Shown here piece by piece: positions 9,102 to 44,620 of a stretch of DNA of 64,000 nt. The stretch comes from Candidatus Thalassolituus haligoni (lineage in GTDB: Bacteria > Pseudomonadota > Gammaproteobacteria > Pseudomonadales > Oceanobacteraceae): assembly GCF_041222825.1 (NCBI RefSeq), contig NZ_CP139482.1, positions 4,312,546-4,376,545 of the forward strand, in the 5' to 3' direction. Numbering within the stretch: position 1 is the first letter of the stretch; each line of letters opens with the position of its first letter. Made by a program: the position numbers and the translations under genes. Below the pieces are notes generated by a model that was given only the letters and a program-made list of their open reading frames with translations, did not search any database and was not told the origin of the DNA.

Positions 9102-9280
9102 AACTCCCTGCTGCATTGGCCAGTCGACAAAGACCTCGAGCCGATGACCACAACCCCGGAGGGTTTCAGTCGCTGTTGTGCGCATGTCCGACTACCGGAA
9201 AGCCTTATTCAGCGAATGACCCACCACCTTGAACCATTGGGTTCAAGGGCTTTTTCCGACAGCGGTGCGGCGGGGTTCCT
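9102..9280 (+). ncRNA. ssrS: 6S RNA
   Basis: The RNA of about 180 nt that mimics an open promoter and sequesters sigma-70 RNA polymerase in stationary phase. Location between zapA and ygfA is the conserved one. The terminal stem is visible: CCCTGCTGCATTG (9106-9118) pairs end to end, allowing G-U pairs, with CGGTGCGGCGGGG (9263-9275). The internal ACCTTGAACC...GGGTTCAAGGG hairpin near 9228-9249 and the GGCCAGT segment also resemble the E. coli molecule. Exact ends are estimates from the promoter and stem. Confidence 0.88.
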
Positions 9281-35439: not shown

Positions 35440-36171
35440 TTACAGTGACTTCATCACCTTGCGAACTTCTGGTAAATGGCGACGACTGACCGCTACACCA
35501 GCATCAAGTCCACGTAAATGGACAAAGTGACCACCACCTTCCAGGGTTTCCAGCCGAACGATACGATCCCGCGCCACCAGTGCACTGCGGTGTACACGGA
35601 CGAAGCGATCACCAAACTCGTCTTCAAGCTGGCGCAGGCTGTCATCGATCAGGGTTTCGCCCTGCTCGTGGATAGCGTTTACGTATTTCTGGTCGGCCAA
35701 AAAGTAGCAGACTTCTTCCACCGGAATCAGCTGCAGCCCCATATGGGTACGAGCAGTCAGATGGCTACGCACCCCAAGACTGGCAATGCGGCGCTGCGCC
35801 CGACCGGCCAGGCGCTCTCTGGCCCGATCCAGTGCCCGCTGCAAATCCGCCGGACGCACCGGCTTGAGCAAATAATCAATCGCACTGACGCCAAAGGCAT
35901 CCAGCGCGTGTTCGTCAAAAGCGGTACAAAAAACCACCAGCGGAGGATGCGCATGCTGCTGTACTGCCTGCGCGGTTTCGAGGCCGCTACGACCGGGCAT
36001 CTGGATATCGAGTAACAGTACATCAACACCGTTGAATACCAGCCACTCCAGCACAGCATCACCACTCTCCAGCTCAGCCACCAACTCAAAGTCCGGGTGT
36101 TCTCCTATCAATCGCGCCAGCCGGTCACGGGCCAGCGGCTCATCATCAACCAGAGCGATGCGATAACTCAT
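35440..36171 (-). CDS. algR: LytTR response regulator AlgR
   Basis: A 243-residue response regulator of the AlgR/LytR class. The receiver domain (residues 1-120) has the acidic pair in LVDDEPLA, the phospho-acceptor Asp in LLLDIQMPGRSG (about residue 54) and the Lys in LLKPVRP. The C-terminal LytTR DNA-binding domain (about 145-240) has VCYFLADQKYVNAIH and FVRVHRSALVARDRI. Context hemC-algR-algZ-argH is identical to Pseudomonas, where AlgR controls alginate, twitching motility and virulence. ATG 36171 follows GGAG and overlaps the kinase gene by 26 nt. Confidence 0.9.
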   Translation of the reverse strand: MSYRIALVDDEPLARDRLARLIGEHPDFELVAELESGDAVLEWLVFNGVDVLLLDIQMPGRSGLETAQAVQQHAHPPLVVFCTAFDEHALDAFGVSAIDYLLKPVRPADLQRALDRARERLAGRAQRRIASLGVRSHLTARTHMGLQLIPVEEVCYFLADQKYVNAIHEQGETLIDDSLRQLEDEFGDRFVRVHRSALVARDRIVRLETLEGGGHFVHLRGLDAGVAVSRRHLPEVRKVMKSL

Positions 36172-37231
36172 GGGTATGCTCTCCAGAATGCGACGGAACC
36201 AAGATCCGCGCCTGATATTCATCCGGCAGCTCTGCGGTCTGCAGCCGGGCAGATTCACCAAACAGGGTTTCCAGCCGGGCACGAATATTACGCTGGGCAA
36301 TGCCGTTGCCTGGCGGGCTGGCACCGGGAAGGCGAGCATTCGCCACCGCCAGCTCCCAGCCACCGGCGACGGCGGTCAGCGAAATACGGATCCAGCCGCC
36401 CCCCACCAATGGCTGCACACCATGGTAGACGGCGTTTTCCAGCAAAGGCTGGAGAATCAGTGCTGGCATGGTGATTTCTGGCAGTGGCTCTGGCAATTGC
36501 CATTCAACCTCCAGCCGCGACCCCAACCGGGTATGCTCGATGTCCAGATAGCGCTGGCCAAATTCAATCTCCTGCGCCAAGGTAGAGGGCTGGTCATCGG
36601 CTTTTAATACCACCCGGAACAACTGCGCCAGATCCAGCAGCATGTTTTCGGCTTTTTCCGGGTCGATCACAATCAATGCCGCCACAGTGTTCAGCGTGTT
36701 GAAAAAAAAGTGTGGCCGAATATTCGCCTGCAAGGCCGACAGCCGCGCCTTGAGTTCGGCCTGAGCCTGTATCCGCCACTGACTCTGGACGTAAAAATAA
36801 CGTAACGCCAACGCCGTCACCAGCGCACTGACCAACGCATTACGGGCAATCCAGAGCCAATCAATACTCCGCAGGCTGGTCGGCCAGAGCCAGTCGGCCA
36901 TCAAGCTGACACCCAGAGTCACCAGCTGCACCAGCAGCAGCGCCAGTACCGATACCAACAGCACGTTGACCTGCACCAGAACAAAACGTAACTGGCACAG
37001 AATCGCGACCGAGAGCAGCGCAACCCACTGCACAAACAGCGACACCAGCCCGAATCGCTCCCAGGAAAACGCCGCCAGGGACGACTCCATCAGCGTCAGA
37101 ATCGCCACCAGCCCTTCGCTGACCGCCAACAAAAACAGGATCGCTCGGGTGTTGCAGAGATCTGGCAGAAAAAAAGCATCCAGCAAACCGGGATCATGCT
37201 GACGACTGACAACGGCGGTAGTGTTCGGCAT
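36146..37231 (-). CDS. algZ: LytS-family sensor histidine kinase AlgZ/FimS
   Basis: A 361-residue membrane sensor kinase, partner of AlgR. The N-terminal part has about five to six spans (residues 30-160). The His_kinase domain has the FFNTLN motif preceded by IRPHF with the phospho-His (about residue 190), and a degenerate ATPase domain with PALILQPLLENAVYHG. I use ATG 37231, whose ribosome site is weak (AAGGCG); the frame stays open to 37348. Its end overlaps algR by 26 nt, so the two are translated together. It is divergent from argH. Confidence 0.88.
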   Translation of the reverse strand: MPNTTAVVSRQHDPGLLDAFFLPDLCNTRAILFLLAVSEGLVAILTLMESSLAAFSWERFGLVSLFVQWVALLSVAILCQLRFVLVQVNVLLVSVLALLLVQLVTLGVSLMADWLWPTSLRSIDWLWIARNALVSALVTALALRYFYVQSQWRIQAQAELKARLSALQANIRPHFFFNTLNTVAALIVIDPEKAENMLLDLAQLFRVVLKADDQPSTLAQEIEFGQRYLDIEHTRLGSRLEVEWQLPEPLPEITMPALILQPLLENAVYHGVQPLVGGGWIRISLTAVAGGWELAVANARLPGASPPGNGIAQRNIRARLETLFGESARLQTAELPDEYQARILVPSHSGEHTHELSHRSG

Positions 37232-37353
37232 AACGGACGCCTTTGGCCATGGAATGAGATAAACAGCTGGGAGCCTGTCGGACTTGGAGCACCGACAGGT
37301 CGCTAGTCTCGCTTTAGTCACGAGTGACGGCAAGTATCTGCTCCACATTCCGG

Positions 37354-37457: not shown

Positions 37458-38867
37458 ATGACTGATCAATCCACCAATGCCTCGTGGGGCGGCCGTTTTT
37501 CCGAGCCAACCGATGCTTTTGTTGCCCGTTACACCGCGTCAGTGGACTTTGACCAACGCATGTACCGTCAGGACATTCAGGGATCGGTTGCCCATGCCCG
37601 CATGCTGGCGCATGTCGGCGTGCTGACCAACGCCGAGCGCGACGATATTATTCGCGGCCTGGAAGAGGTTCGGATCGAGATTGAACGCGGCAATTTCAAC
37701 TGGTCGGTCGCGCTGGAAGACGTTCATATGAACATCGAAGCCGCGCTGACTGCCAAAATCGGTATTACCGGCAAAAAACTGCACACCGGCCGCTCCCGTA
37801 ACGATCAGGTCGCGACCGATATCCGCTTGTACCTGCGCGACGAAATTGATCTCATCTGCTCCGAACTGACCCGCTTGCAGCAGGGCCTGATCGAACTGGC
37901 CAGCCGGGAAGCCGATACCATCATGCCCGGCTTCACCCACCTGCAAACGGCACAACCCGTCACCTTTGGTCACCATTTGCTGGCCTGGAATGCGATGCTG
38001 GAACGTGACTATGCGCGTCTGCAGGACTGCCGGAAACGCATGAACCAGTTGCCACTCGGCGCTGCTGCCCTGGCAGGTACAACCTATCCGATTGATCGTT
38101 TTTACACTGCCGAACTACTGGGTTTTGATGCCCCCACCGAGAACAGCCTGGATTCGGTTTCCGATCGCGATTTTGCCATCGAATTCACCAGCGCGGCGGC
38201 CCTGATCATGATGCATATGTCGCGTTTTTCAGAAGAGCTGGTGCTGTGGGCTTCGGCGCAGTTCCGTTTTATCGATCTGCCGGATCGTTTCTGTACCGGT
38301 TCCTCCATCATGCCGCAGAAAAAGAACCCGGATGTTCCCGAGCTGGTACGCGGCAAGACCGGTCGGGTCTACGGCCATCTGGTCAGTCTGCTGACACTGA
38401 TGAAATCCCAGCCACTGGCCTACAACAAAGACAATCAGGAAGATAAAGAGCCACTGTTTGATACCGTCGATACCCTGCGGGACAGCCTGCGGGCATTCGC
38501 CGATATGGCTCCCCACCTGCAAGCACGCCGGGACGATATGCGGGGTGCTGCCAAGCGCGGCTTCTCCACCGCCACCGACCTCGCTGACTACGTGGTGCGC
38601 AAGGGCATTCCCTTCCGCGATGCCCATGAAATTGTTGGCAAGGCTGTCGCTTATGGTCTGGCACAGGGCAAGGATCTCAGTGACATGACGCTGGAAGAGT
38701 TGCAGCAGTTCTCTGCTGAAATCAGTGCCGATGTGTTTGAAGTGCTGACACTGGAAGGCTCAGTCGCCGCTCGTAACCACATTGGTGGCACTGCGCCAGA
38801 CCAGGTACGCGCTGCGGCAATACGCGCCAGCCGTGCATTGGCTGACCGCGAAGAAAACCTTGCCTGA
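37458..38867 (+). CDS. argH: Argininosuccinate lyase
   Basis: A 469-residue enzyme of arginine biosynthesis that splits argininosuccinate into arginine and fumarate. Fumarase/aspartase-superfamily marks are complete: [11 protein letters not shown] at the N-terminus, [26 protein letters not shown] and the mobile loop [12 protein letters not shown] with the catalytic Ser. AGGGGA precedes ATG 37458. It is divergent from algZ and ends before a long hairpin. Confidence 0.97.
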
Positions 38868-38937
38868 AATACCCGGAAGTCTGCCGAACTTAGGGCTGCT
38901 CTACTGCAGGAGAGTGGAATCTGGCTCTTTAGAGTCA

Positions 38938-38978
38938 CCAGTATTGACAGGAATCCGCTGGACTCCCGCCAATACTGG
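38938..38978. terminator. Imperfect hairpin between argH and a convergent gene
   Basis: CCAGTATTG (38938-38946) and CAATACTGG (38970-38978) form a perfect 9-bp outer stem, with further GGA/TCC pairing inside. No T tract follows on either strand, so it may be a factor-assisted terminator or a transcript-stabilising element. The rest of 38868-39075 holds no recognisable gene. Confidence 0.45.
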
Positions 38979-39075
38979 CTTCAGTCAACAGCCCTGCCCT
39001 CTCAGAAAGTGGCCCGTCAAAAAGTACGGCGTGCCCAAAAGTCCCGTACGTCAATCGATACCGCACACTGTCTGT

Positions 39076-39324
39076 TTACAGCTGCTGCCGCTTTTTGAAC
39101 CAGCCTTGCTGCCCGGCAATCGTGACCAGACGGAACACCAGCACGGCATGCATAACGCCGATCAACCCTGCCGGGACATAGTCGTTGACGCTGAACATTT
39201 CCCATACCAGCGCCGGTAGTACCAGAATCGGAAACCAGGCAACATAGCGATAGAAGAAGTTTTCGAAACTGGAGATTGCCTGATTTTCCGTCGTTGTTAT
39301 CTTGTTTTTATTATCTTTTTTCAC
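39076..39324 (-). CDS. Small two-span membrane protein, unknown
   Basis: An 82-residue basic protein. A polar, Lys/Asn-rich N-terminus of about 25 residues precedes two hydrophobic segments (about 28-45 and 50-70) and a positively charged end (WFKKRQQ). GAGG lies 5 nt before GTG 39324, which supports translation. I recognise no family. It is transcribed alone, between argH and the binding-protein operon. Confidence 0.6.
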   Translation of the reverse strand: MKKDNKNKITTTENQAISSFENFFYRYVAWFPILVLPALVWEMFSVNDYVPAGLIGVMHAVLVFRLVTIAGQQGWFKKRQQL

Positions 39325-39549
39325 ATCAACCTCTGAAGGATATGCTCTGCTGCGCGGGATGGATTTCAGGCCTGCTGCCTTTATAAAGTGCTGAACAGGC
39401 GTTGCTCAGCAAGATCGGGGACAACCCTGATAGTCTGCTAAGGGATCATATTGACAGCCCGATTGCCACTCGCCCTTGGTCGTAGGACGGCTTAACCTGT
39501 TATAAGTTTGACTGCTAGACTGATAATAATCGTTTGTTTTGGAGCGGCC

Positions 39550-40512
39550 GTGCCTTTTCTCCACCTTTGCCTGTTCACGCTGACATTGCTATCTCTGGGT
39601 GCCTGTGATCAGCATGCTCCCTTACCCTTGCTACGCATCGGCACCAACGTCTGGCCCGGTTATGAGCCTTTTTATCTGGCCAGGGAAGACGGCTTGCTGG
39701 ATACCGGGCAACTACGTCTTGTAGAGCTGGCCAGTGCTCCCGATGTAATGGATGCCATGAGACAAGGGCAACTGGAAGGCGCCGCATTGACACTGGACGA
39801 GGTCTTGCTACTCACCAGCGAGGGACTGGACCTCACCGTGGTGCTGATCTGCGACCAATCCCTGGGAGCCGATGTGGTTCTGGCCAGGCCAGAGATTCAC
39901 AGCGTCGCCGAGCTGGCAGGCCTGCGCATTGGCGTTGAGACCAGTGCCGTCGGTGCCTTGATGCTGCAAGCCGCACTGGCATCGACACAGCTCACGCTCA
40001 GTGATATCACCATCGTCAACCTGAGGCAGAATGAATATCTTGATGCGCTGGCTGCTGGCCGGATAGATGCCGCTGTCACCTTTGCGCCGTATTCTTTGCA
40101 GTTGCTTGCCGCCGGTGCGACTCCGCTGTTTTCCAGTGCCGATATTCCTGGCCAGATTGTCGATGTGCTCGCCGTCAGAACCGAGTTGCTGGCAACCCGA
40201 CACACCGCCTTACGTGGCCTGGTAAACGGTTTTTTGGTATCAAAACAACGTATTGAACGTGGCGACCCGGCTGCCCTTGATATCATTAACCGACGGCTCA
40301 AGTTACCAGCCACTCACATCAAAGATGCCTACTTGGGTCTGACAATGCCCGATCAGGATGAGAATCTGCGACTACTGGCTGGCCCTCGCTCCCGCTTGTC
40401 CCGTCACGCCAGTGATCTCGTCAAGCTGATGCAAACCCACCACTTGCTGAAGCCCGGCTCTATCCCGACCCTGCGCACGACGGCGTCCCTGGTCGCAGAG
40501 AACGGGCCGTGA
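39550..40512 (+). CDS. NitT/TauT/SsuA-like periplasmic binding lipoprotein
   Basis: A 320-residue ligand-binding lipoprotein of the NMT1/SsuA class (binders of sulfonates, nitrate or thiamine precursors). The lipobox is LGAC, and IGTNVWPGYEPFYLAREDG is the typical first strand. I choose GTG 39550 since GGAG lies 5 nt upstream; a TTG at 39508 lacks a ribosome site. No ABC permease or ATPase follows. Its stop overlaps the GTG of a GGDEF-EAL gene, so the likely job is to sense a ligand for that enzyme, as NspS does for MbaA in Vibrio (inference). Confidence 0.8.
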   Translation: MPFLHLCLFTLTLLSLGACDQHAPLPLLRIGTNVWPGYEPFYLAREDGLLDTGQLRLVELASAPDVMDAMRQGQLEGAALTLDEVLLLTSEGLDLTVVLICDQSLGADVVLARPEIHSVAELAGLRIGVETSAVGALMLQAALASTQLTLSDITIVNLRQNEYLDALAAGRIDAAVTFAPYSLQLLAAGATPLFSSADIPGQIVDVLAVRTELLATRHTALRGLVNGFLVSKQRIERGDPAALDIINRRLKLPATHIKDAYLGLTMPDQDENLRLLAGPRSRLSRHASDLVKLMQTHHLLKPGSIPTLRTTASLVAENGP

Positions 40513-42950
40513 GACCTAATGGATCCTACTCCATTCGCCTCATTCTGATGTCCTGGGCCGTACTGGCACTGGGCACGACAGCCATTGCAGTGGCCTACTT
40601 TCTTTTTGATGCGACCAACAGTCAGTTCCATGACAGCTGGAAAAACAAGATCGAATACGACCTTGGTGTACTGCAACAGCAGCTGCAACATTCACTGGCC
40701 GTAGAAAACACCGCCCTCGCAGACCGATCCGTCAGCTATATGGCCACTCATCGCTATATCACCCGTGTCGATGTGATTCAACATGGATTGATCCTGTTCT
40801 CCACTGATCGTGGTCGCATAGGCGCATCAGGGCAACTGCCAACCGTACTCCATAACAGTCGCCCATCGCCAGACAACCAGCAAAAAGAATTGCTCCTGTC
40901 AGAACAGGGTAATATTTACACAGCCGCCTTGCCGGTTTATTACCAGAACGGTATCCGCCAGCAGTCCAGAGGACTGCTGGTCGCCTGGTACAACGTTCAG
41001 CATGAATATCACCGCATGCTGATCGACCTGGCGCAAAAGCTGGCCCTGCTACTGGGCCTGATCCTGCTCTATAGCCTTGGCCTGAGCCAATTACTCAAAC
41101 GCCAGGTGCTGGCGCCGTTAACACGCTTGCAGGGCTTTACCCAAAGCTTGCGCCAAGGTGAACTCGGCCAGACGCTGGAACAATGCAGCAGCCGGGAATT
41201 TACCGAACTGGGAGATACCTTTAATCAGCTCAGCCGTCACTTGCAGTTATCGATCGCCCAGATTGAACGGCAAAATGCCGTCGACCGGGCCTTCTCCCGT
41301 ACCTTCCCGGATGTTGCCTTCCTGATTGACCGCGAGGGATACATTCGCGAACGCATCGGCAACCAGCACAGCAACGTGTCAGAGCTATCGCGTAATCTGA
41401 CCGGTCAACCGGCCTGGGGCTGGATCGAACACGGTCAGGCAGACAGTGTCCGGGCTTGCTGGCTACGTGCCATCAGTCAAGAGTCGGTAGTGATTGAGTC
41501 GCTGCAGCATCAGGATCGCTATCTCGAATCCCGCATGACTCCGTTTCGGCTTGAACGCAGCGATGGGCAGGGTGTCGACGGCGTTTTCTGGCTGATCCGC
41601 GACGTGACTGAACTGCGCCTGAAACAGCAGGAGGTGGAATACCGCGCTCACTACGACACGCTGACCCGGCTCAGCAACCGGGAGATGGCGCTGGGTCGAG
41701 TCAGGGAGCACCTGTCAGCAGCGCGCAAATGCTCTCGCTTTGGTGCCCTGCTGTTTATCGATCTGGACCATTTCAAGAATATTAATGACTCTCTGGGTCA
41801 CCCTGTCGGCGACGCCATTTTGCAGCAGGCAGCGGAACGATTACGCCTCTGCGCCGGGCCACGAGATCTGTGCGCCCGGCTGGGAGGCGATGAATTCCTG
41901 CTGCTGCCCGACGAGCTTTACAGCGATGCCAATGAGGCTGTCGACCAGGCCACCAACTTCGCGAGTGCCTTGCTGGAACAATTCCGGCAACCATTTTTAT
42001 ACAATCGACACAGCTTTCACTTATCGGCCAGTATAGGTATTTCGTTATTTCCTTTTGACCAGCATACCTCGTCAGACCTGATCCGACAGGCCGATACCGC
42101 CATGTATTATGCCAAAGCCCATGGACGTAATGGCTGGAGCCTGTATAGCGAGCACATGCAACGGGAAACCCAAAGCAAACTCAGTCTGATCAATGATCTT
42201 CACGATGCCATCAAGGCCAGAGCCTTCAGTCTGGCCTTTCAACCACAGCTTGACCATCTCGGGCGCATCATTGGCGCTGAGGTGCTGTGCCGGTGGCAGC
42301 ACCGGGGCAAGCCAGTGCCGCCCGACCTGTTTATCGCTGCTGCCGAAGAGGCCAACCTGATTGTGGAACTGGGTGACTGGGTGCTGTCAGCCAGCTGTCA
42401 GACACTGGCCAGGCTGCGGCAGCAGCATTTACTCCCCCAGGGATTCGAACGCCTCGCCATCAATATCAGTCCGGTACAGTTCCTCAATGCCAACTTTTTT
42501 GACCAATTGGTGTTCCATATCGAGGCATTCGATATCCCGCCAAGATTGGTGGAACTGGAAATCACCGAGGGGATTTTTGTCAATGACAAGCAGCTGGTCA
42601 AATCACTGATTCAACGGCTGGTACACCACGGCTTTAATGTCTCGATGGATGATTTTGGCACTGGTTATTCCTCCCTCAGTTACCTCCAGAGCCTGCCGAT
42701 CCAAACACTCAAGATTGATCGCAGCTTTGTCAGTAATATCAACAACTCCGCTGCCGATGCCAATATTGTTGACTACATTATCCAGCTGGGCCATAGCCTG
42801 TATCTGGATATTGTCGCCGAAGGTGTGGAAACCGAGCAGCAACGGGAGTACCTTCTGTCCCATGGTTGCACCAAATTCCAGGGCTATCTGTTTAGCAAAC
42901 CACTGGATGAAACTGCCTTTATCGAGTACCTGACCCCCGATTCTTCATGA
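40509..42950 (+). CDS. Membrane GGDEF-EAL cyclic-di-GMP enzyme
   Basis: An 813-residue protein with a span near residues 10-33, a periplasmic sensor (about 34-175), a second span (about 178-198), a HAMP-like linker and PAS-like segment, a GGDEF domain (motif GGDEF intact near residue 459, FIDLDHFKNIND metal site) and an EAL domain. The EAL signature reads EVL (near 591) but the remaining catalytic set (NIS, ELEITEG, DDFGTGYSSL, KIDRSF, AEGVE) is complete. The RxxD inhibitory site before GGDEF is missing. Both synthase and phosphodiesterase may work. It overlaps its neighbours by 4 nt on each side. Confidence 0.92.
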   Translation: MRPNGSYSIRLILMSWAVLALGTTAIAVAYFLFDATNSQFHDSWKNKIEYDLGVLQQQLQHSLAVENTALADRSVSYMATHRYITRVDVIQHGLILFSTDRGRIGASGQLPTVLHNSRPSPDNQQKELLLSEQGNIYTAALPVYYQNGIRQQSRGLLVAWYNVQHEYHRMLIDLAQKLALLLGLILLYSLGLSQLLKRQVLAPLTRLQGFTQSLRQGELGQTLEQCSSREFTELGDTFNQLSRHLQLSIAQIERQNAVDRAFSRTFPDVAFLIDREGYIRERIGNQHSNVSELSRNLTGQPAWGWIEHGQADSVRACWLRAISQESVVIESLQHQDRYLESRMTPFRLERSDGQGVDGVFWLIRDVTELRLKQQEVEYRAHYDTLTRLSNREMALGRVREHLSAARKCSRFGALLFIDLDHFKNINDSLGHPVGDAILQQAAERLRLCAGPRDLCARLGGDEFLLLPDELYSDANEAVDQATNFASALLEQFRQPFLYNRHSFHLSASIGISLFPFDQHTSSDLIRQADTAMYYAKAHGRNGWSLYSEHMQRETQSKLSLINDLHDAIKARAFSLAFQPQLDHLGRIIGAEVLCRWQHRGKPVPPDLFIAAAEEANLIVELGDWVLSASCQTLARLRQQHLLPQGFERLAINISPVQFLNANFFDQLVFHIEAFDIPPRLVELEITEGIFVNDKQLVKSLIQRLVHHGFNVSMDDFGTGYSSLSYLQSLPIQTLKIDRSFVSNINNSAADANIVDYIIQLGHSLYLDIVAEGVETEQQREYLLSHGCTKFQGYLFSKPLDETAFIEYLTPDSS

Positions 42951-43906
42951 AGCTGCCGCTGGTTTATCACTCCAACTACTCCTGTCCCTTCCCCGCAAAC
43001 CACCGCTTTGTGATGTCCAAGTTTGTGCGTTTGTACGAACACCTGTTGCAGCAGGGATATATCAGCGACAACCTCTACCAACCGGCCATGGCCTCCGTCG
43101 CCGACCTTGCGATTGCCCACAGTCCGATTTACCTGCAAGGGCTGTTAGACGATGCCATTGAGGCAAAAGCCTGGCGACGTCTGGGCTTACCCTGGAGCCA
43201 GGGGCTGATTGACCGCACCCTGACCGCACCCAATGGCACCCTGCTGGCAGCCCGGCTGGCACTCCAGCATGGCATCGCCAGCCATCTGGGCGGCGGCACT
43301 CACCATGCGCATTATGATTTTGGCTCCGGTTTTTGCCTGGTCAACGACCTCGCCTATACCGCACTCACCTTATTGCGACGACGAGAAGTCAAACGGCTGC
43401 TTGTGTTTGATCTGGATGTGCATCAGGGCGATGGTACCGCCGCCATGCTGGCGCATGAACCCCGCGCCTTTACCTGTTCCATTCACTGCGAGAAAAATTT
43501 TCCATTCCGGAAAAGCCGCAGTGACCTCGATATTGGCCTTGATCAATACCTCGATAATGTTGCCTATCTTGCGATAGTTAGAGAAACATTCGAACGCCTG
43601 ATTCATGAACAACAGCCAGAGCTGGTGATTTACGATGCCGGTGTGGATGTGTGGGAAGGAGATGAGCTCGGCCACCTGAATGTAACCCTTGAGGGGATTC
43701 AGCAGCGTGATCGCTGGGTACTGGAATATTGCCAGCAACGAAGAATACCAGTAGTGACTGTGATTGGCGGAGGCTACGACAAAGATCATCAACGCCTGGC
43801 CGAACGCCATGCCAGCGTGGTGAAAACGGCTTACCAGGTATTTGAGCAAAATCAGTCGATACACGCTGTGCAAACAGACAAGTCAGAAACAAAACCAGAC
43901 GCCTGA
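42947..43906 (+). CDS. HDAC-like (AcuC-type) deacetylase
   Basis: A 319-residue member of the arginase-deacetylase fold. The active-site pattern is seen: GGTHHAHYDFGSGFC with the two His, FDLDVHQGDGTA with Zn-binding Asp and His, YDAGVDVWEGD with the other Asp, and GGGYDKDH with the Tyr. Bacterial relatives deacetylate acetyl-CoA synthetase or polyamines. The ATG overlaps the GGDEF-EAL stop (ATGA). Being third in a binding-protein/c-di-GMP operon suggests a shared substrate such as an acetylated amine, but that is inference. Confidence 0.85.
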   Translation: MKLPLVYHSNYSCPFPANHRFVMSKFVRLYEHLLQQGYISDNLYQPAMASVADLAIAHSPIYLQGLLDDAIEAKAWRRLGLPWSQGLIDRTLTAPNGTLLAARLALQHGIASHLGGGTHHAHYDFGSGFCLVNDLAYTALTLLRRREVKRLLVFDLDVHQGDGTAAMLAHEPRAFTCSIHCEKNFPFRKSRSDLDIGLDQYLDNVAYLAIVRETFERLIHEQQPELVIYDAGVDVWEGDELGHLNVTLEGIQQRDRWVLEYCQQRRIPVVTVIGGGYDKDHQRLAERHASVVKTAYQVFEQNQSIHAVQTDKSETKPDA

Positions 43907-43941: not shown

Positions 43942-44523
43942 TCAGAACAACACGTGCACGGCGGCATCAATACCACTGTGGGTAGATTGGGTTTCGTAGG
44001 TATTATAGCCATCCGTAGCATCCTGCCAGCTGATGGACTTGAATTTGTAGCCTAACTCAACGTCCAGATGTTCATGGAACTGCCAGATCACACCACCGCC
44101 AAAGTTGAATGCCAACCCGGAAAGATCGTCATTATCCGAAAAGTACTGAGCAGAATCCTCAAACGTGTAAGAACCCAAGCCCACCATCAGGTAAGGCTTG
44201 ATGCTTTCACCCCAGACGAAGTAGTAGTCAACGTCAAAACCGCTGTATGTTTCATCCTCATAGTTTTCATCGTATTCGACATCAATGGAGCCAATAGACA
44301 ACTCCAGACGATTGGCATAACTCCACTGATAGCCAAGACGTATTGAAGCGTTCGAATAGCTGTAGTCGTACGTCCTGGAGGACGACCCCTGTGTGTACTC
44401 TTCTTCGCCACTGCCTGCCAACCCGGCCATGCCGGCACCAATATAAAACTGGCCTGCCATCACAGACGAAGAAGACGCCACCATCAAAGGCAACAAGGAT
44501 TTTGCAAATATTTTAGGTATCAT
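43942..44523 (-). CDS. Outer-membrane beta-barrel protein (porin-like fold)
   Basis: A 193-residue protein with a Sec signal (MIPKIFAKSLLPLMVASSSS, cleavage near VMA-G) and an 8-strand barrel pattern: alternating aromatic/polar strands such as YYFVWGESIKPYLMVGLGS and a final strand ending in VHVLF with terminal Phe. It resembles OmpA-like/OmpX-type small barrels, but no specific family is recognisable. AGGAGA precedes ATG 44523. It is convergent with the HDAC gene and upstream of the atp terminator. Confidence 0.75.
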   Translation of the reverse strand: MIPKIFAKSLLPLMVASSSSVMAGQFYIGAGMAGLAGSGEEEYTQGSSSRTYDYSYSNASIRLGYQWSYANRLELSIGSIDVEYDENYEDETYSGFDVDYYFVWGESIKPYLMVGLGSYTFEDSAQYFSDNDDLSGLAFNFGGGVIWQFHEHLDVELGYKFKSISWQDATDGYNTYETQSTHSGIDAAVHVLF

Positions 44524-44620
44524 GACGCTCTCCTGAGCTTTGGGAAAATCATACGGTGCAAACAGGAAGAGGGGCAGCGGGAAGAAAAAAGGGGAACCCG
44601 ACATCCTGTCAGTCAATAAT

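Follow-up and report, generated by a model that had tools for sequence, protein, structure and literature searches.

Periplasmic binding proteins acting on diguanylate cyclases or phosphodiesterases are an established mechanism (PMC9602780, PMC8967002), and control of cyclic di-GMP (c-di-GMP) by such proteins is known from very few systems. In the NspS-MbaA system of Vibrio cholerae and Sinorhizobium meliloti, a binding-protein gene lies upstream of, and overlaps with, the gene of a GGDEF-EAL enzyme in which two transmembrane segments enclose a periplasmic domain. MbaA is bifunctional in V. cholerae (PMC9993111, PMC8967002), its cyclase activity being favoured by the loaded binding protein and its phosphodiesterase activity by the absence of that protein (PMC8967002). 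In BctC-BctE, a binding protein docks on the receptor domain of a sensor kinase (PMC9602780), and in Cycloclasticus sp. P1 the gene of the 318-amino-acid periplasmic binding protein PahP lies, by locus tag, beside that of the histidine kinase PahK, both having been found in a transposon screen for degradation of polycyclic aromatic hydrocarbons (PMC8547461). The present analysis concerns three overlapping genes in a stretch of 64,000 nucleotides of Candidatus Thalassolituus haligoni (contig NZ_CP139482.1, hereafter the window), which forms the end of a 4.38-Mb single-contig genome. The sequence data indicate that genes 1 and 2 quite probably constitute a dedicated switch of periplasmic sensor and c-di-GMP enzyme, to which gene 3 would be an accessory or a bystander. 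The features, in window positions, are as follows.

39550..40512, forward strand: gene 1, NMT1-fold solute-binding lipoprotein of 320 amino acids, GTG start (Pfam)
40509..42950, forward strand: gene 2, membrane GGDEF-EAL enzyme of 813 amino acids, GTG start (Pfam, hydropathy)
Residues of gene 2: transmembrane segment 1 (TM1) ~11-30, periplasmic part ~31-168, transmembrane segment 2 (TM2) ~169-195, HAMP-like segment 196-246, PAS 266-370, GGDEF 380-541, EAL 562-798
40593..41096, forward strand: periplasmic receptor domain of gene 2 with TM2; no Pfam match, homologues in the input domains of cyclases and kinases
42947..43906, forward strand: gene 3, predicted class IV (HDAC11-type) zinc deacylase of 319 amino acids, ATG start (PF00850)

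Genes 1 and 2 overlap by 4 nucleotides as GTGA and genes 2 and 3 by 4 nucleotides as ATGA, which confirms the three overlapping open reading frames (ORFs) of an earlier note made from the sequence. An alternative upstream start of gene 1 is possible at a TTG at 39508.

The gene 1 protein scored above cut-off with PF13379 and PF09084, and these NMT1-type families (NMT1_2 and NMT1) were the only Pfam matches at E ≤ 1e-3. Together with the periplasmic-binding fold of its structure model (predicted local distance difference test score, pLDDT, 92.8), which matches TauA, SsuA, CmpA and NrtA, this places it among the NMT1-fold proteins. Its sequence matches and best fold matches in the PDB were of the TauA/SsuA type; neither these nor the Pfam search at E ≤ 1e-3 gave any indication of a PotD/PotF-type protein. 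A lipobox, LGAC followed by Asp, puts the lipid attachment site at Cys19, and the motifs NVWPGYE (33-39), TLDE (81-84) and SLGAD (104-108) were located. No transporter genes adjoin the trio, which has argH upstream and an outer-membrane protein gene and the atp operon downstream (window ORFs, Pfam and synteny). The proposal of the earlier note, a NitT/SsuA-like binding lipoprotein without transporter genes, thus holds. Compared with the TauA/SsuA/CmpA-type binding proteins of ATP-binding cassette (ABC) transporters and with ABC_peri_uca, gene 1 differs by its lack of a permease or ATPase partner, its lipid anchor, its TLDE motif and its scores, which remained below the NCBIfam cut-offs (TIGR01728 SsuA_fam, 90.1 against 163.5 bits; TIGR03427 ABC_peri_uca, 68.6 against 333.9 bits). 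BctC, for its part, belongs to the TctC family and also serves a transporter (PMC9602780).

A profile of 21 lipoproteins from the family was searched in 369 gammaproteobacterial genomes and at E 1e-35 matched 76 places in 58 genomes. Matches of at least 207 bits, a limit chosen after inspection of the list, were considered strong; there were 47 of these including the window's, and the other 46 were all fetched. Directly downstream of 39 of the 46, on the same strand, a signalling gene was found (19 GGDEF-EAL, 7 GGDEF and 13 histidine kinase genes), while an ABC permease gene followed none of the 46. These classes were assigned with local profiles, and Pfam gave the same picture for the 38 downstream ORFs that were scanned (20 with GGDEF, 16 with EAL, 13 with HisKA and 13 with HATPase_c). 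The strong relatives at loci L175, L181, L182, L192, L202, L203 and L210 had no signalling match downstream, and a later domain search found the receptor domain directly downstream of L175, L181, L182 and L210. Among the 29 weaker places, two (L065 and L066) lie in the genome of the window and adjoin ABC genes; the other 27 fall in 26 loci, where the downstream gene was a permease in 12, a signalling gene in six and neither in eight. The contrast in signalling and permease neighbours between strong (39/0) and weaker (6/12) relatives gave a Fisher p of 2.6e-8, with relatedness ignored. A strong lipoprotein with an adjacent signalling gene is present in 34 of the 369 genomes including the window's, or 33 of 368 others. 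At 1e-55 the lipoprotein profile matched in 50 of 398 genomes, 37 of the 50 from other classes of the phylum.

The separation is also visible in the proteins themselves. In a tree of 78 rows, the 12 ABC-linked proteins all fall on one side of a single branch (Shimodaira-Hasegawa-like approximate likelihood ratio test, SH-aLRT, 99). In alignment columns, Asp83 and Glu84 occur in 99% of the aligned signalling members; in the ABC-linked group position 84 is Asp and the lipid-site Cys is missing. W35, G37, S104, G106 and D108 are common to the signalling and the permease-linked groups, so that the signalling group is marked by the lipidated Cys and TLDE. The strict lipobox pattern was found in 40 of the 46 strong relatives. 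Gene 1 is therefore best read, from its sequence relatives, as a signalling protein rather than a transport component. Two further ideas did not survive. Retention in the inner membrane, considered for the Asp after the lipidated Cys, was dropped as this residue varies among relatives, and putative lipoprotein-receptor fusions (open frames of 884 and 934 amino acids) proved to be long GC-rich frames in which only the C-terminal end matches and after which a separate receptor ORF follows.

In gene 2, PAS_4, GGDEF and EAL scored above their Pfam cut-offs and HAMP reached 22.4 against a cut-off of 25 bits. The GGDEF motif and the EAL residues E, N, E, D, D, K, E and Q, to which we presume the catalytic roles usual for this domain, are invariant in all 17 aligned enzymes, the window's included; judged by sequence, both active sites are intact. 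In L046 the relative of gene 2 is divided between two overlapping ORFs, and in L035 it has no PAS region. With its transmembrane-periplasmic-transmembrane start and intact GGDEF-EAL domains, gene 2 is the c-di-GMP enzyme with periplasmic sensor that the earlier note had placed after the lipoprotein. The same note had seen in the locus the architecture of NspS-MbaA and, with it, polyamine sensing. The layout was recovered: the genes overlap with the binding protein first, and the enzyme has the same membrane topology. The polyamines were not, as NspS is a polyamine protein of the PotD/PotF type and gene 1 a lipidated protein of the NMT1/TauA/SsuA type. Genes 1 and 2 thus resemble NspS-MbaA in layout, with another family of binding protein, and nothing points to polyamines.

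No Pfam family matched the periplasmic domain of gene 2 at E 0.5, and a profile of the domain gave no usable match in the PDB (best E 0.38); CHASE8 was matched weakly in four of 27 members of the receptor domain (best E 0.0029). A profile built from the 17 enzymes of the family alone was applied to the N-terminal regions of 45 non-family receptors, 20 of which matched at E ≤ 1e-3. All 20 stand beside strong lipoproteins (20/39, against 0/6 beside weak ones), and they comprise seven kinases, three GGDEF and ten GGDEF-EAL proteins. Of 196 other long ORFs, three matched at the same threshold, two of these lying directly after lipoproteins (L181 and L175). A wider profile of 27 rows, searched in the 369 genomes with 70 bits as the limit for a strong match, found 60 places, of which 35 reached the limit; 20 of the 35 were training rows. 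The remaining 15 stood directly after a listed lipoprotein in 11 cases, as did four of the 25 weaker places, and seen from the other side the domain directly follows 31 of the 47 strong lipoproteins. Receptors of another kind, with a different periplasmic domain type at the start, were seen at L193, L194, L195, L207, L212 and others, with Phosphonate-bd identified individually for L194.

The receptor domain accompanies the lipoprotein whatever the output, which is the pattern that docking would require, and this co-conservation speaks for proteins 1 and 2 being linked. Neighbourhood and homology show a module of lipoprotein and receptor domain that appears to be plugged into cyclases, cyclase-phosphodiesterases and kinases in many Gammaproteobacteria. 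A count of output-type swaps on the lipoprotein tree was abandoned: the best tree has 14 changes, and its well supported branches force only two to three per type, so that diversity of outputs is claimed here and not a number of swaps.

Within the family, 44 genomes were sampled, the counts being based on the window and 36 fetched places (unfetched places scored 102 bits or less). At E 1e-10, 38 of the 44 genomes have a gene 1 relative, which stands directly before a relative of gene 2 in 19, the window included, with the 4-nucleotide overlap in 15 of these. The trio is complete in 14 genomes, the histone deacetylase (HDAC) family gene being third in 14 of the 19 with the pair. The junction of genes 2 and 3 is less constant. 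The 4-nucleotide overlap occurs in only three of the 14, the window's among them, and elsewhere overlaps of 1 nucleotide, gaps of 3-13 nucleotides and one overlap of 22 nucleotides (longest ORF) were found. Adjacency of both pair and trio recurs more often than chance would allow. Among the best 80 HDAC loci of public genomes, the trio was present in 11, from Oceanobacter, Parathalassolituus, Thalassolituus, Thalassobium or loosely named kin, and missing in 69, some with short flanks, which include Bermanella, Thalassotalea, Endozoicomonas and many Pseudoalteromonas. The trio thus occurs in several genera, and restriction to this genome alone, which the earlier note had named as fatal to its proposal, does not apply.

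Gene 3 matched PF00850 with 179 bits (E 1.6e-52) and carries the motifs HRF (19-21), GGTHH (116-120), DVH (157-159), D234 and GGGY (274-277). Hydropathy revealed no strongly hydrophobic segment, and the protein is predicted to be cytosolic. Its structure model reached a mean pLDDT of 77.5 only. The nearest solved structures among the matches listed are those of VcHdaH (9GKV and 9GKY; cluster 5b), with 258 bits, a template modelling score of 0.85-0.86 and 41-42% identity, followed by Leptospira HDAC11 by fold and 9RJE by sequence (239 bits). On the question of an acetylpolyamine amidohydrolase, a group marked by a polyamine-specific L2 loop and a head-to-head dimer, it was VcHdaH and Leptospira HDAC11 that made up the best sequence and fold matches listed. 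The columns of the catalytic HH, DxH, D and GGxY are kept in all 11 aligned HDACs (the window's and ten relatives).

By these matches gene 3 is a class IV enzyme of the VcHdaH/HDAC11 type. It shares the fold and GGGY with VcHdaH and differs from it in the gatekeeper, Thr where VcHdaH has Tyr. Class IV has been divided into a clade A, for which none of the peptides tested served as substrate, and a clade B of long-chain deacylases (PMC13325672). With HRF, Gly for Glu94 and a Thr gatekeeper, gene 3 resembles clade A, and the signatures R20, G80 and T118 (Arg for Pro36, Gly for Glu94 and Thr/Ser gatekeeper) occur in 11 of 11 sequences, the column correspondence being read from the structure-match alignment and the text of PMC13325672. 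The Arg-Glu pair by which clade A closes the foot pocket is absent: R90 is present in 11 of 11, followed four residues later by Ala (10) or Ser (1) in place of Glu. VcHdaH is a weak de-decanoylase (PMC11532494), C6, C10 or C12 acids occupy the foot pocket in class IV structures, and published work suggests long-acyl or non-peptide substrates for the class (PMC11532494, PMC13325672). Gene 3 would accordingly be expected to be weak on acetyl-lysine peptides and to have a non-peptide acyl substrate. Of the earlier description, an arginase-fold deacetylase with relatives acting on acetylated amines or proteins, the HDAC family membership remains, and the comparison now points to class IV nearest VcHdaH, with clade A signatures.

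Genome-wide, an HDAC match at E 1e-30 was found in 24 of the 44 family genomes, 14 with the trio and ten without the pair; the five genomes with the pair and no third gene had no HDAC match anywhere at this threshold. The ten were scored as lacking the pair on the basis of their fetched loci, unfetched gene 1 matches being below 75 bits. On a tree of argH from 29 genomes each trait needs four changes, and phylogenetically independent pairs gave 0.5 changes in the same way against 1.3 in opposite ways, which does not support coupling; the test is small, and the tree is that of one gene with nine of 26 inner branches well supported. In L166-L169, relatives from the same genus and a sister genus with the HDAC gene only, this gene lies beside a small divergent membrane gene, and also beside argH wherever argH falls in the fetched stretch. 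As these loci keep the same neighbours, pair and HDAC gene appear to be gained and lost separately from each other at one common site. With gains and losses of the two being independent, a functional link of HDAC and sensor is unproven, and the HDAC is, on present genome comparisons, a real but local companion, a loosely attached extra. The earlier idea of a ligand-gated c-di-GMP circuit with a linked deacetylase is retained as far as the recurrent sensor pair goes; the link to the deacetylase is lineage-specific and repeatedly dissolved. Elsewhere, in the Bermanella-type loci L170, L171 and L172, the HDAC gene starts 2-19 nucleotides after that of a secreted protein which by eye resembles a binding protein of family 3; two of the three had no Pfam match (the same genes in L079 and L084).

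The recurrent pairing of lipoprotein and receptor domain and the intact catalytic domains make it likely that the pair is a ligand-gated c-di-GMP switch. In the mechanism proposed, the lipid-anchored protein would use its modelled NMT1 fold to bind a small periplasmic ligand and, in a ligand-dependent conformation, would dock on the receptor domain of gene 2. The signal would run through TM2, the HAMP-like segment and the PAS domain and tip the enzyme towards synthesis or degradation of c-di-GMP, gene 1 setting the balance of cyclase and phosphodiesterase by analogy with NspS-MbaA. Since both active sites are intact by sequence, either direction of output is possible, as in MbaA. The cytosolic product of gene 3, probably co-transcribed in a few genera, would probably act on acylated small molecules or long-acyl amides. 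As to the ligand, we would guess at a small nitrogen compound that is cationic or of the amidine/urea type. The guess derives from L061, a relative beside a permease gene, where genes for urea carboxylase, UAAP1 and UAAP2 adjoin, which are now associated for the most part with guanidine (PMC12186494); the neighbourhoods of other such relatives appeared similar by eye. Guanidine itself is a guess taken from these transporter-linked neighbourhoods, one checked and the others viewed by eye.

Several observations weigh against the dedicated switch or leave parts of it loose. Three of the 46 strong relatives (L192, L202 and L203) showed, in the profile searches made, neither a signalling domain nor a receptor domain directly downstream, and no receptor domain is detectable after 16 of the 47 strong lipoproteins. 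Conversely, four of the 15 strong non-training domain matches and 21 of the 25 weak ones do not stand beside a listed lipoprotein. The receptor side is not uniform, as Phosphonate-bd (PF12974) occurs in six of the 38 downstream proteins scanned. Three family lipoproteins, L052-L054, have no lipobox, and the variable residue after the lipidated Cys leaves membrane sorting unreadable from it. The class of ligand is a guess. As to gene 3 as a bystander, the table of pair and HDAC in the 44 genomes (14/5/10/15) shows some excess of co-occurrence (Fisher p 0.035, relatedness ignored), and the independent-pairs test is too small to exclude coupling.

The alternatives differ mainly in what they make of the neighbours of the pair. 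An ordinary transport binding protein serving a distant ABC importer, with the c-di-GMP neighbour incidental, would fit the public records, in which some close relatives are named ABC transporter substrate-binding proteins, and the transporter-linked relatives in the same genome (L065 and L066). The strong relatives speak against it, with signalling genes after 39 and permease genes after none of 46, as do the lipid anchor and TLDE that set the signalling clade apart from the ABC clade, and we hold it to be improbable. The tight spacing of gene 3, from 22 nucleotides of overlap to a 13-nucleotide gap in 14 of 14 trio genomes, and the medium-chain acids in class IV structures would agree with a three-part circuit confined to Oceanobacter, Thalassolituus and close kin, in which gene 3 hydrolyses an acylated (e.g. 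medium-chain) form of the ligand or removes acyl groups from a pathway protein. This reading is unlikely given the independent gains and losses of HDAC and pair and the unrelated contexts of the HDAC gene in other lineages.

Most improbable is an amine circuit, in which acetylated amines or polyamines would be the ligand of the lipoprotein, c-di-GMP would be set by the enzyme, and the deacetylase would strip acetyl groups from that same ligand. Trio synteny in 14 of 44 genomes and the co-occurrence of HDAC and pair speak for it; conserved acidic residues of the lipoprotein could suit cationic ligands, and in the Oleiphilus bin L089 the HDAC gene follows an ABC-type operon with a binding protein matching SBP_bac_8, which we take to be the type of polyamine transporters. 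It is countered by a lipoprotein that is not PotD-type and by genomes with the pair and no HDAC match at E 1e-30 genome-wide (five) or with HDAC and no pair (ten). The HDAC itself carries GGGTHH in the window, and GGTHH in 11 of 11, where robust deacetylases carry RPP (PMC11532494). A polyamine or acetylpolyamine circuit was rejected as leading idea on account of the NMT1-type lipoprotein and the VcHdaH-like class IV HDAC. A different matter, compatible with the dedicated switch, is whether gene 2 has a single active output, phosphodiesterase or cyclase, with the other domain regulatory. One-output arrangements are common among tandem GGDEF-EAL proteins, and RxxD, which we assume to be the inhibitory-site motif, is not intact in the window's gene 2. 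That neither catalytic site varies in any of the 17 aligned enzymes speaks against it, and we rate a single output as possible but less likely than not.

The genes around the system are the following.

37458..38867, forward strand: argH, upstream neighbour, outside the system (Pfam, synteny)
39076..39324, reverse strand: divergent gene of a small putative membrane protein of 82 amino acids, upstream of gene 1 (ORF)
43942..44616, reverse strand: outer-membrane beta-barrel gene, convergent downstream neighbour, outside the system (PF13505, synteny)

Divergent ORFs resembling the 82-amino-acid membrane gene by eye adjoin the pair or the HDAC gene in L049, L070 and L166-L169. Genes for a LytTR response regulator and a His_kinase-family sensor (35440-37348, reverse strand) adjoin argH and are kept in several relatives. 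With Rfam at gathering cut-offs no c-di-GMP or guanidine riboswitch was found near the operon, the sole match in the window being a 6S RNA (9102-9280, forward strand, 93.9 bits). Promoter and terminator scans (6 against 3.8 and 7 against 4.5 in shuffled sequence) remained near shuffled levels. Identity of 99-100% connects the HDAC gene and its neighbours with a metagenome contig labelled uncultured Oceanobacter, and a second, distant gene of the HDAC family lies elsewhere in the genome (L002, contig 2080921-2081430; 28% identity over residues 116-280). Compared with L033, from a genome of the same species, window positions 38800-41300 diverge in gene 1, its upstream region and the start of gene 2. 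The gene 1 proteins are 88% identical, and 100-base bins of the DNA fall to 71%, with flanks of 96-100% in most bins; the simplest reading of this tract is import by homologous recombination.

The literature searches brought up no description that we recognised of the trio or of an NMT1-type signalling pair; most subscription papers were outside reach, so that absence is unproven. Term searches of the main texts of PMC11532494 and PMC13325672 found no mention of linkage between HDACs and c-di-GMP enzymes. PahP-PahK, picked up in an experimental screen, may possibly be kin to the gene 1 module. NspS-MbaA occurs in less than 1.4% of the proteobacterial genomes analysed in PMC9993111, against 33 of 368 other genomes of the class for a strong relative of the gene 1 lipoprotein with a signalling gene directly downstream, a rough comparison as the samples differ.

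The pair is of a widespread and, it appears, little studied type. As public records name such proteins as transport proteins, receptors of an entire class may have been overlooked, and identifying one ligand would make every one of them accessible to assay. The question of what clade A class IV HDACs do becomes testable with gene 3, the published clade A enzymes having been inactive on the peptides tested (PMC13325672). In its widest form, which we consider quite unlikely, the proposal would be that a sensory module of lipidated NMT1-fold protein and dedicated receptor domain, not catalogued until now and swapped among c-di-GMP enzymes and kinases across Pseudomonadota, senses cationic or amidine-type nitrogen compounds, and that Oceanobacter, Thalassolituus and their kin have added a deacylase that hydrolyses the acylated ligand. 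If true, this extension would make a sense-and-degrade c-di-GMP circuit in these bacteria.

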